From: Oscillospiraceae bacterium
GTDB lineage: Bacteria > Bacillota > Clostridia > Oscillospirales > Oscillospiraceae
Direction of reading: 5' to 3'
DNA: 64,000 nucleotides
NCBI GenBank assembly: GCA_902787755.1
Contig: CADAHL010000003.1
Coordinates: 61,991 to 125,990 of the forward strand
How positions within the stretch are numbered: the stretch's first letter is position 1; each line of letters begins with the position of its first letter. The notes beneath the pieces are model-generated. The model ran no database searches. It was not told the origin of the DNA and saw only the letters and a list, made by a program, of their open reading frames with translations. The position numbers and the translations under genes are program-made. Shown here in pieces: positions 6,451-8,216 of this stretch.

Positions 6451-6954
6451 TTACTCAACGTCCACCAGCACGCACTTCAGGCCCTGGCGTTTTGCGTAAA
6501 GGATGGTATTCATGGTGCCGCCGGGGTGCCCGCTGTAGCAGGCCAGCAGCACCGAGGCGTGGTCCACCATGTACTGGTTGCGCCGCTGCATACAGTCGGG
6601 GGTATAATGGATCTGCAGCACCGTCACCTGGTCGCAGGCGTCCAGGATCTGATTGTAGCGCCGGCGCTGGGCTTTCGTCCAGCGGCTGGGCTGATCCCCG
6701 CAGGGGATGGCGGCCTCCAGGCTTACGTCCGGATACAGCTTCCGCATGGCCAGCACCGCCTCGGCAAACATGATATCGCAGCCGATGGCCATCCCGCAGA
6801 GAAAGTGCCGGTAGCCGGCGGCGTACAATCCCTCCAGCCGGGCGGCCAGCTCCTCCTTCATTTTCAGACAGCGGGGATCCTCCTCCCGGTTCCCCCAGGG
6901 CAGCCCGGAAGGCCGGTGCCCGGTGAAGCAGCAGCTCAGTTCTTTCGGATACAC
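6451..6954 (-). CDS. SLOG-domain protein, DUF1273 (YpsA-like)
   Basis: This 167-residue protein begins with KELSCCFTGHRPSGLPWG, the typical start of the DUF1273/YpsA branch of the SLOG (Rossmann-like nucleotide-binding) superfamily. It continues with a GMAIGCDIMFAE segment and a C-terminal GHPGGTMNTILYA strand-loop that would bind a nucleotide-like ligand. SLOG proteins sense or process nucleotide derivatives. YpsA of Bacillus is linked to cell division and stress, but the ligand here is unknown. It is a single gene ending at the shared terminator. Confidence 0.85.
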   Translation of the reverse strand: MYPKELSCCFTGHRPSGLPWGNREEDPRCLKMKEELAARLEGLYAAGYRHFLCGMAIGCDIMFAEAVLAMRKLYPDVSLEAAIPCGDQPSRWTKAQRRRYNQILDACDQVTVLQIHYTPDCMQRRNQYMVDHASVLLACYSGHPGGTMNTILYAKRQGLKCVLVDVE

Positions 6955-7005: not shown

Positions 7006-7034
7006 TTGTCAAAGCAAAGCGGCGGTGCTATAAT
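7006..7034 (+). promoter_or_regulatory. Promoter of the FMN riboswitch-ribU transcript
   Basis: TTGTCA and TATAAT with a 17-base spacer form a near-perfect vegetative promoter. The expected start, at about 7041, is exactly the first strand of riboswitch stem P1 (GTCTTC), which supports both calls. Confidence 0.9.
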
Positions 7035-7058
7035 GACGCCGTCTTCAGGGCAGGGTGA

Positions 7059-7223
7059 CATACGAAATCCCGGCGAAAGTCCCGGATTCGCAGCGGCCTG
7101 CTTTCCACCATGCTTCGTTACCCGTGACGGGAAATACACAAAGTATTCCTCCGCCCCGGCTGCCTCGCCTGGTGAAAAGCATTCTCGTTGCTCGGTCCGA
7201 TCCTTTCACCAGGCTTCCGTATC
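7059..7223 (+). other. Structured insert in loop L2 of the FMN riboswitch
   Basis: About 165 nt sits inside the P2 hairpin, between TGA and ATT of the normal UGAAAUU loop. It is closed by its own stem, ATACG.AA (7060-7067) with TTCCGTAT (7215-7222). Inside are GCGAA/TTCGC, CCCG/CGGG, AATAC/GTATT, and a perfect 10-bp stem CCTGGTGAAA (7168-7177) with TTTCACCAGG (7204-7213). No reading frame or mobile-element signature is evident. Confidence 0.75.
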
Positions 7224-7291
7224 ATTCCCGACCGGCGGTACAGTCCGCGAGCCTTTTGGCTGACCCGGTGCGATTCCGGGACCGACAGTGA

Positions 7292-7452
7292 AGGCGGTGC
7301 CGCAACGTTCGGCGAGAGCAGATTCCGAGGAAATTTGGGTTCTGATAAAGGTGCTTTTTCGCAGATGCACTTCGTGTACCTCAGGAAAAAGCGACGAGAT
7401 CAGGGCACAAATTTGCCGGAAGATGCCGAAGGCGAATGCTGTGGTAGCGCCT
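7292..7452 (+). other. Structured insert in loop L6 of the FMN riboswitch
   Basis: About 160 nt lies in the P6 loop after AGTGA. The closing stem is AGGCG (7292-7296) with CGCCT (7448-7452). Inside are GCCG/CGGC (7299-7313), a long stem with AAATTTG/CAAATTT and CTGAT/ATCAG, and an apical GCTTTTT/AAAAAGC stem. An open frame crosses it but has no ribosome site or recognisable protein. Confidence 0.75.
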
Positions 7453-7508
7453 GTAGTCTGGATGGAAGAAGATAGGCAATACCTATATTCCGTCCTGCCA
7501 TGATTTTG

Positions 7509-7540
7509 CCCGGAGACTTCGGTCTTCGGGACATTTTTTT
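7509..7540 (+). terminator. Riboswitch-controlled terminator before ribU
   Basis: CCCGGAGAC and GTCTTCGGG form a hairpin with a TTCG loop, followed by ACATTTTTTT. It lies between the end of the aptamer and the ribU ribosome site (GGAGGAG), as expected for FMN-induced premature termination. Confidence 0.9.
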
Positions 7541-7553
7541 GGAGGAGATCCCC

Positions 7554-8216
7554 ATGAAAAAACAGCAGCTTTCCACCCGTTACCTGGCCGTCGCGGCCAT
7601 GTTCACCGCTCTGTCCTTCGTGATGGTGCTGGTGAGCAAGGTGATCCCCAATGTGGCCGGCTTCCTGAGCTACGAGCCCAAGGACGCCATCATCGTCATC
7701 GCCGGCTTCATTTTCGGGCCCATGACCTGCCTGATCATCTCCCTGCTCTGCTCCTTTATCGAGATGATCAGCATCAGCTCCACCGGCATCTACGGCTTTC
7801 TCATGAATGTGGTGTCCACCTGCGCCTTCACCGTTCCCGCCGCCTGGTTCTACTCCCGGCACCGCACCCAGAAGGGCGCTGTGATCGGGCTGGGCATCGG
7901 CGTGGCGGTGCTGACTTTGTGCATGGTGCTGTGGAACTACATCATCACCCCCTTCTACATGGGCGTGGACCGCTCCGTGGTGGCGGGGATGCTGATGAGC
8001 GTGTTCCTGCCCTTCAATCTCATCAAGGGCGGCATCAACGCGGGTCTGGCTCTGCTGCTGTATAAGCCTTTGGTGACCGCGCTGCGGAAGGCCCACCTGG
8101 TGGAGGAATCCTCCAGCGGGAAGAAGGGCAAATTCAGTCTGGGCTTTACCCTGTTTGCTCTGGCCGTGCTGGTGACCTTCGTGCTGCTCCTGCTGGTGAT
8201 GCTGGGAGTGCTGTAA
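7554..8216 (+). CDS. ribU: Riboflavin ECF transporter S component RibU
   Basis: RibU is the membrane substrate-binding subunit that works with the shared EcfAA'T module to import riboflavin. The 220-residue protein has about six hydrophobic segments and the family features YLAVAAMFTALSFVMVL and a SYEPKDAIIVIAGF segment, with a charged C-terminal tail KKGKFS before a last membrane helix. I chose ATG 7554 because GGAGGAG lies 7 bases before it and the terminator hairpin occupies the in-frame sequence upstream. The FMN riboswitch supports the substrate. Its last 71 bases overlap the convergent flippase gene. The ECF ATPases are not in the window. Confidence 0.93.
   Translation: MKKQQLSTRYLAVAAMFTALSFVMVLVSKVIPNVAGFLSYEPKDAIIVIAGFIFGPMTCLIISLLCSFIEMISISSTGIYGFLMNVVSTCAFTVPAAWFYSRHRTQKGAVIGLGIGVAVLTLCMVLWNYIITPFYMGVDRSVVAGMLMSVFLPFNLIKGGINAGLALLLYKPLVTALRKAHLVEESSSGKKGKFSLGFTLFALAVLVTFVLLLLVMLGVL

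Follow-up and report, generated by a model that had tools for sequence, protein, structure and literature searches.

A 2007 study, reportedly by Barrick and Breaker, describes variable insertions in riboswitches as long hairpins at specific loop sites that leave the core undisturbed, and finds the GNR triloops of L2, L3 and L5 in the FMN riboswitch to be sometimes interrupted by helices (PMC2258182, 2007). In the published structure of the FMN riboswitch, L2 and L6 dock on each other; L2 forms a T-loop into which A90 of L6 inserts, between the fourth and fifth L2 bases (PMC3764141). In pneumococci, a BOX element lies between two T boxes upstream of trp, and the leader seems still to be regulatory (PMC3049150, 2011). 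A review considers riboswitch formation by MITEs conceivable (PMC10969869), and a large survey of insertion sequences (IS) compared IS positions with riboswitch motifs (PMC9208149). Narrow literature queries on repeats and insertions in riboswitches, mostly excluding subscription papers and partly limited to excerpts, returned no MITE inside an aptamer loop, and a query on MITEs in rumen Oscillospiraceae returned nothing.

The riboswitch described here lies in a 64,000-nt stretch of an Oscillospiraceae bacterium genome (GCA_902787755.1, contig CADAHL010000003.1, positions 61,991 to 125,990 of the forward strand), hereafter the window. It shares with the FMN riboswitch family RF00050 the six helices in order, the near-invariant bases, a promoter, a terminator-like hairpin and a riboflavin-transporter-like gene, but its docking loops are enlarged by mobile repeats, of about 165 nt in L2 and 160 nt in L6. 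We conclude that this is probably an ordinary FMN riboswitch that was hit by two MITE-like repeats, which are tolerated as passengers while function is retained. Unlike the variable insertions of PMC2258182, for which the available text names no origin, those in the window are identified mobile repeats, and L6 is used as well. The pneumococcal BOX is likewise a MITE-like repeat built into a compound riboswitch leader, but it lies between two riboswitches, whereas the window repeats lie inside one (PMC3049150).

The locus and its aptamer core

We identified a complete FMN (RFN) aptamer core in a 441-nt leader (7037-7477), with all segments in order (Table 1). The aptamer is split twice, the non-canonical stretches running from about 7059 to 7223 in L2 and from about 7292 to 7454 in L6. 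The original prediction was accurate in these respects: the core bases are present in order, the two loops are expanded by about 165 and 160 nt, loop bases are kept on either side of each insert, and in the whole-leader fold each insert is closed by its own stem. It had also placed the start at P1, and the promoter-like site (TTGTCA-17-TATAAT) ends at 7034, just before P1. The RF00050 covariance model recognises the core only partially. A match at 7201-7320 (49.3 bits, E 3.4e-10) aligns P3 to P5; the gathering score of 66.2 was not reached, and both ends are misaligned across the inserts. At the gathering threshold, an Rfam scan of the whole window returned two tRNAs only.

The riboswitch is placed 5' of a riboflavin-transporter-like gene, a genomic setting expected of an FMN riboswitch; in NCBIfam this gene has matches below the cut-off only. 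Hairpins resembling the terminator-like one of the window were also seen by eye in relatives. The divergent neighbour gene (6454-6954, minus strand) belongs to the YpsA SLOG family (PF06908), and sequence similar to a YpsA-type neighbour was noticed by eye upstream of the leader in some relatives.

Table 1. Features of the FMN riboswitch leader and its downstream gene, in window coordinates.
Feature	Position	Strand	Basis
Sigma-70-like promoter, TTGTCA-17-TATAAT	7006-7034	+	11/12 matches, consensus scan only; start expected at P1
P1 5' strand	7038-7046	+	pairs within 7468-7477; probabilities 0.81-1.0 (whole-leader partition function)
P2 5' strand, GGG	7053-7055	+	pairs with 7227-7229 CCC; probability 0.97-0.98
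Insert 1, left target duplication, ACA	7058-7060	+	family rule TNA, from 59 copies
Insert 1 in L2, family-1 palindromic repeat, TAC..GTA	7061-7221	- (reverse orientation)	model R1 and full-length copies elsewhere
Insert 1, right target duplication, TCA	7222-7224	+	family rule TNA, from 59 copies
P2 3' strand, CCC	7227-7229	+	pair probabilities, whole-leader partition function
P3 with L3	7235-7248	+	RF00050 alignment; pairs 0.99-1.0
P4, variable hairpin	7250-7261	+	RF00050 alignment and pair probabilities
P5 with L5	7264-7280	+	RF00050 alignment and pair probabilities
P6 5' strand, CAG	7286-7288	+	pairs with 7458-7460 CTG; probability 0.86-0.87
Insert 2, left target duplication, TGAA	7289-7292	+	family copies have 4-bp duplications, that of L061 being TGAA
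Insert 2 in L6, family-2 palindromic repeat, 159 bp, IS5-type ends	7293-7451	+	identity to dispersed copies, alignment A3, ends common to L286 IS
Insert 2, right target duplication, TGTA	7452-7455	+	one difference from TGAA
L6 end, P6 3' strand and P1 3' strand, GTCTGGATGGAAGAAGATAGGC	7456-7477	+	core comparison, pair probabilities
Terminator-like hairpin and T run	7509-7540 (stem 7509-7530)	+	consensus scan only; putative expression platform
ECF transporter S component, riboflavin type (ribU-like)	7554-8216	+	PF12822 63.6 bits; PF07155 30.6 bits, cut-off 26.7

Core conservation and predicted folding

The window core was compared at the 66 positions whose base is shared by at least 95% of 69 insert-free cores (a count that left out inserts, P4 and the variable L3), and it has one deviation. 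The insert-free cores have a mean of 0.26 in a leave-one-out count. Other insert carriers have no deviation (G060, G115 and G116), two (G128) or three (G107), and two of the three in G107 look like a paired change in P5. In the docking loops of the window, the fourth L2 T-loop base, usually a purine, is C, and the conserved A at the second position of L6 is replaced by G.

In the minimum-energy fold of 7037-7477, P1 to P6 are formed and the inserts are closed hairpin arms on P2 and P6. The partition function of the whole leader gives core pairs with probability above 0.5 a range of 0.68-1.0. The summed expectation is 0.15 pairs of insert with core and 0.0 pairs of one insert with the other. 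The stretches 7062-7222 and 7294-7449, one to three bases short of the inserts, beat 200 of 200 dinucleotide shuffles in folding (z of -3.7 and -7.0). With each insert closed into a single long arm that extends P2 or P6, the ligand core should fold normally despite the inserts, a prediction supported by both the folding and the conservation of the core.

Insert 1 and repeat family 1

With the leader as DNA query against 99 genomes, the L2 insert (insert 1) matches two other places, and the L6 insert (insert 2) has many dispersed matches in genomes of the same genus. Among 15 chosen genomes, insert 1 was matched in eight and at full length in three, its own genome included. The two full-length copies elsewhere are 80% and 76% identical to it and sit at unrelated places, with flanks unlike the riboswitch. 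DNA comparison found one copy each of inserts 1 and 2, and no other close copy of either, in the window's own genome, where the family-1 model (R1) has five matches.

We picked 48 candidate family-1 repeats by their ends, core motif and length, and aligned 34 of them (alignment A1) after excluding 14 as chance, overlapping, shortened or near-duplicate cases. The aligned copies form a 56-pair hairpin of about 163 nt with compensatory changes in 45 pairs. In the alignment 95.2% of cells pair, whereas shuffles reach 74.2% and slid versions no more than 41%; the outermost pairs are favoured because picking required at least 10 of 11 outermost positions to be paired, and the inner helices were not so selected. 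This covariation result concerns family 1 only. Internal loops (GACGAGGC opposite AACGAAG) and the tip are also conserved in the alignment, the hairpin otherwise covarying freely; these loops and the tip are possibly a site for a protein or an RNase. No Rfam family matched the family-1 copies scanned. One family-1 repeat precedes a T-box leader by about 50 nt (L258 1501-1927).

Of 102 genomes of the genus, in each of which no more than 28 candidates were scored, 74 have a match to model R1, a number that may include second-family variants, since R1 also matches L012, L019 and L014 of that family (57, 54 and 37 bits); the two families thus look related. Insert 1, itself a member of the training set, scores 129.7 bits at 7060-7222 on the minus strand, and the L6 insert did not reach E 1.

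The target duplication of family 1 was read from 59 flanked copies. T occupies left position 2 in 49 and A right position 2 in 54, and the bases between that T and A are equal in 44 of the 59 (12-22 in shifted controls). Perfect TNA duplications surround TAC..GTA in 36 of the 59; the A and T next to the ends are fixed by the picking rule. A duplication of zero or one base, considered earlier, was replaced by TNA once these copies had been tabulated. The window copy has ACA and TCA, with one mismatch.

The IS1031 group of the IS5 family has a TNA target and a 3-bp repeat (PMC12016507). From this likeness in their duplications, family-1 repeats may be moved by IS5-type transposases. Family 1 differs from described IS5-family IS and their MITEs in its conserved hairpin core and covarying arms, and no autonomous partner was found: none of four DDE_Tnp_1 loci from nine genomes held an IS with family-1 ends.

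Insert 2 and repeat family 2

In four chosen genomes, insert 2 has at least 41 matches in G060 (where 40 of 66 candidates were scored), 22 in G053, 21 in G027 and one in its own genome. It is short and has terminal inverted repeats. Its identity to dispersed copies is 84% over 155 bases and 87% over 134 bases, and A3 is the oriented alignment of the family. The family-2 end pattern occurs 107 times in G060, where a control pattern has no match. An exact 4-bp duplication flanks 24 of 36 listed end pairs, with one mismatch in four more; of the other eight, four are chance-like and four are like copies with changed flanks. Around insert 2 the duplication is TGAA/TGTA, matching at three of four bases, and the family copy at L061 is flanked by TGAA, identical to the left duplication of the window.

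A sequence in another genome (L286 1-1177, G038:C128) begins with a family-2 end, contains an open transposase frame and closes with the inverted end. With 310.7 bits the frame is well above the cut-off of 140 for NF033581 (IS5 family), and it also matches DDE_Tnp_1. The right end is present twice in tandem as a 38-bp repeat, followed by CTAA, and the left flank is cut by the contig end. This IS is likely the autonomous partner of family 2, or close to it. Family 2 has ends and a 4-bp duplication in common with this IS5-family IS, and the shared ends strongly indicate that it is moved by IS5-type transposases.

Probable insertion into an ordinary element

Empty sites were compared in loci taken from ribU-like genes. 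The 53 loci included one without a match and ten duplicates, leaving 42 distinct cores, in which L2 is 7 nt in 40 and L6 is 6 nt in 38. When one duplication is left per insert, the window has an L2 of 7 nt and an L6 of 6 nt, as expected for insertion into an ordinary element. With one TNA left, L6 of G115 would be 5 nt instead of 6, and G060 and G128 conform poorly to the duplication rule. Insert 2 diverges by about 13-16%, and insert 1 by 20%, from the closest near-full-length copies known. This divergence, with no close copy in the genome, suggests but does not prove that the inserts are old. Misassembly appears unlikely for the same lack of close copies elsewhere in the genome.

FMN riboswitches across the genus

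The RF00050 survey returned 98 rows in 92 of 102 genomes, corresponding to 97 riboswitches (that of G060 is split into two rows), all of which were examined. They were viewed in 100 loci: 95 for survey rows, L078 and L079 for the remaining two, L117 as a duplicate, and L170 and L171, which contain ribU-like genes without an FMN match. A pattern matched 86 of the 100; the other 14, L170 and L171 among them, were read by eye, and L174, L213 and L221, where the pattern match started too far upstream, were re-read by eye. Nearly all named relatives are metagenome assemblies, and the genomes are mostly incomplete.

Ninety-one of the 97 riboswitches are without such repeats, and six carry eight insertions, all in L2, L3, P4 or L6. 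In addition to the window (family 1 in L2, family 2 in L6), R1 identified family-1 repeats in L6 of G115, in L3 and L6 of G128 and in P4 of G060, the L6 copy of G128 and the G060 copy being outside the training set. G107 has a 37-nt L6 with family-2-like ends only, as judged by eye. P4 of G116 holds a different palindromic repeat, similar pieces of which occur at other loci; this insert had no match in a comparison with phage. A plasmid search gave, among the matches listed (five of seven records), only matches to the P3-P5 core. In G115 (L164, G115:C10) there is a second long palindromic insert, between the terminator and the start codon of the ribU-like gene.

Short hairpins occur in L2 of G100, G037, G054, G017, G025 and G031 and in L6 of G044 and G050 (also in L129, outside the survey set); the eight riboswitches within the survey set keep recognisable cores. 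The 3' AGU is kept in seven L6 cases (four repeats and three short hairpins). No long insert in L5, junctions or stems was seen among the 97 riboswitches; insertions that disrupt the core could escape an Rfam search. L2, L3, P4 and L6 make up 30% of aptamer length (68 leaders) and hold all eight insertions (p 7e-5), and they hold 51% of TNA sites and five of five family-1 insertions (p 0.034), both p values flattering a restriction to loops because the loop set was defined after seeing the data.

In a quick protein tree of 56 rows, which lacks G128, has low support at 21 of 53 inner branches and includes some very long branches, the carriers G000, G060, G107, G115 and G116 fall in different places, and G107 and G044 are sisters. 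Nine ribU-like places have no FMN match alongside: the element is lost in G001, a contig end truncates G024, the start of G118 is on another contig together with the match, and six are weaker second matches. Eight genomes have neither an FMN nor a ribU-like match. Natural loss of the riboswitch was seen twice, each time 5' of a ribU-like gene: G129 (L162, G129:C109) lacks the 3' half and G001 (L171, G001:C77) the whole element.

How the inserts may affect the riboswitch

The evidence is best accommodated by two palindromic repeats of two families having jumped in, one into L2 and one into L6. The inserts landed in loops and so would be passengers tolerated by selection. In L2, U-G-A and the closing A-U-U lie on opposite sides of the insert; in L6, AGU is retained on the 3' side. 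The L2 T-loop would then function in split form. In relatives, the short L2 hairpins interrupt the loop almost exactly where the insert does (TGA on one side, AATT on the other), so the likeliest picture is that the split T-loop still docks with L6. Most likely, the window riboswitch remains able to bind FMN and regulates transcription by way of the downstream terminator.

Alternatively, the inserts may have broken the riboswitch, abolishing L2-L6 docking, leaving little or no FMN binding and freeing the transporter from FMN control, with a core that has yet to decay. The docking of these loops in the published structure (PMC3764141) and the losses in G129 and G001 are in keeping with this reading. 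We nevertheless consider it unlikely: the inserts have diverged from their nearest copies, which suggested age, yet 65 of the 66 near-invariant positions are kept, and eight other riboswitches of the genus have short L2 or L6 hairpins and recognisable cores.

The original prediction read the inserts as a coordinated extra domain, one that might supply a second input or let the expanded loops make a new contact. In its favour, exactly the two partner loops are expanded, G128 also has two inserts (L3 and L6), and the opposite orientations of the inserts give them tips of nearly complementary sequence, for which an uncontrolled calculation puts the free duplex (50 nt from each) at -21.3 kcal/mol. 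However, the energy gained by cofolding the tips is -4.3 kcal/mol, where 200 shuffles average -5.9 and 67% of them equal or exceed the natural gain, and pairing of the tips was rejected as no stronger than in shuffles. The folded leader is expected to contain 0.0 insert-insert pairs. The inserts belong to two dispersed repeat families and have target duplications, and 91 of the 97 riboswitches are without them; the prediction had named beforehand an absence from relatives as counting against it, and this is largely what was found. A coordinated domain is thus very unlikely. Known RNAs were also sought within the inserts, and apart from FMN, Rfam gave weak matches below gathering scores only.

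Finally, the repeats might aim at hairpin loops, the riboswitch loops being true targets rather than tolerated landing places. Insertions were seen in six of 97 FMN riboswitches and in none of 114 TPP matches (p about 0.009); none of the latter is of insert-bearing length, and insert-bearing TPP riboswitches may evade the search. Against unmatched controls, family-1 sites are more often in predicted hairpin loops with 30-nt flanks (24 of 59 vs 27%) and 40-nt flanks (20 of 59 vs 22%), but not with 20-nt flanks (25 of 59 vs 43%). Controls placed at TNA sites leave little excess (54% vs 52% for 20 nt, 44% vs 37% for 30 nt and 34% vs 25% for 40 nt), and at 60 element-bearing loci scanned no element was found inside another Rfam RNA, although a split RNA could be missed. 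Both targeting of hairpin loops and insertion into other structured RNAs were set aside, and we regard the former as extremely improbable. Some TPP matches form pairs about 45 nt apart, in tandem on one strand (G037:C89:2599-2862, G054:C72:11796-12057 and G115:C2:145623-145885).

Implications

It is conceivable, if rather doubtful, that MITEs landing in FMN aptamer loops are a recurrent source of new peripheral riboswitch arms, that they are trimmed to short hairpins, and that some arms within the genus, perhaps those in both docking loops here, have been co-opted for folding, docking or ligand tuning. G107, with its family-2-like ends only, and its sister G044, with a short L6 hairpin, are a candidate example of such trimming.

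Covariance searches can lose insert-bearing riboswitches, and that of the window falls below the Rfam threshold. The need of closed loops for L2-L6 docking becomes testable. The insertions amount to a natural insertion scan of the aptamer, in which L2, L3, P4 and L6 were each seen to take up a repeat of about 160 nt. Similar repeat insertions are present in FMN riboswitches of several related gut bacteria, and mobile hairpin repeats are a concrete source for some riboswitch variable insertions.
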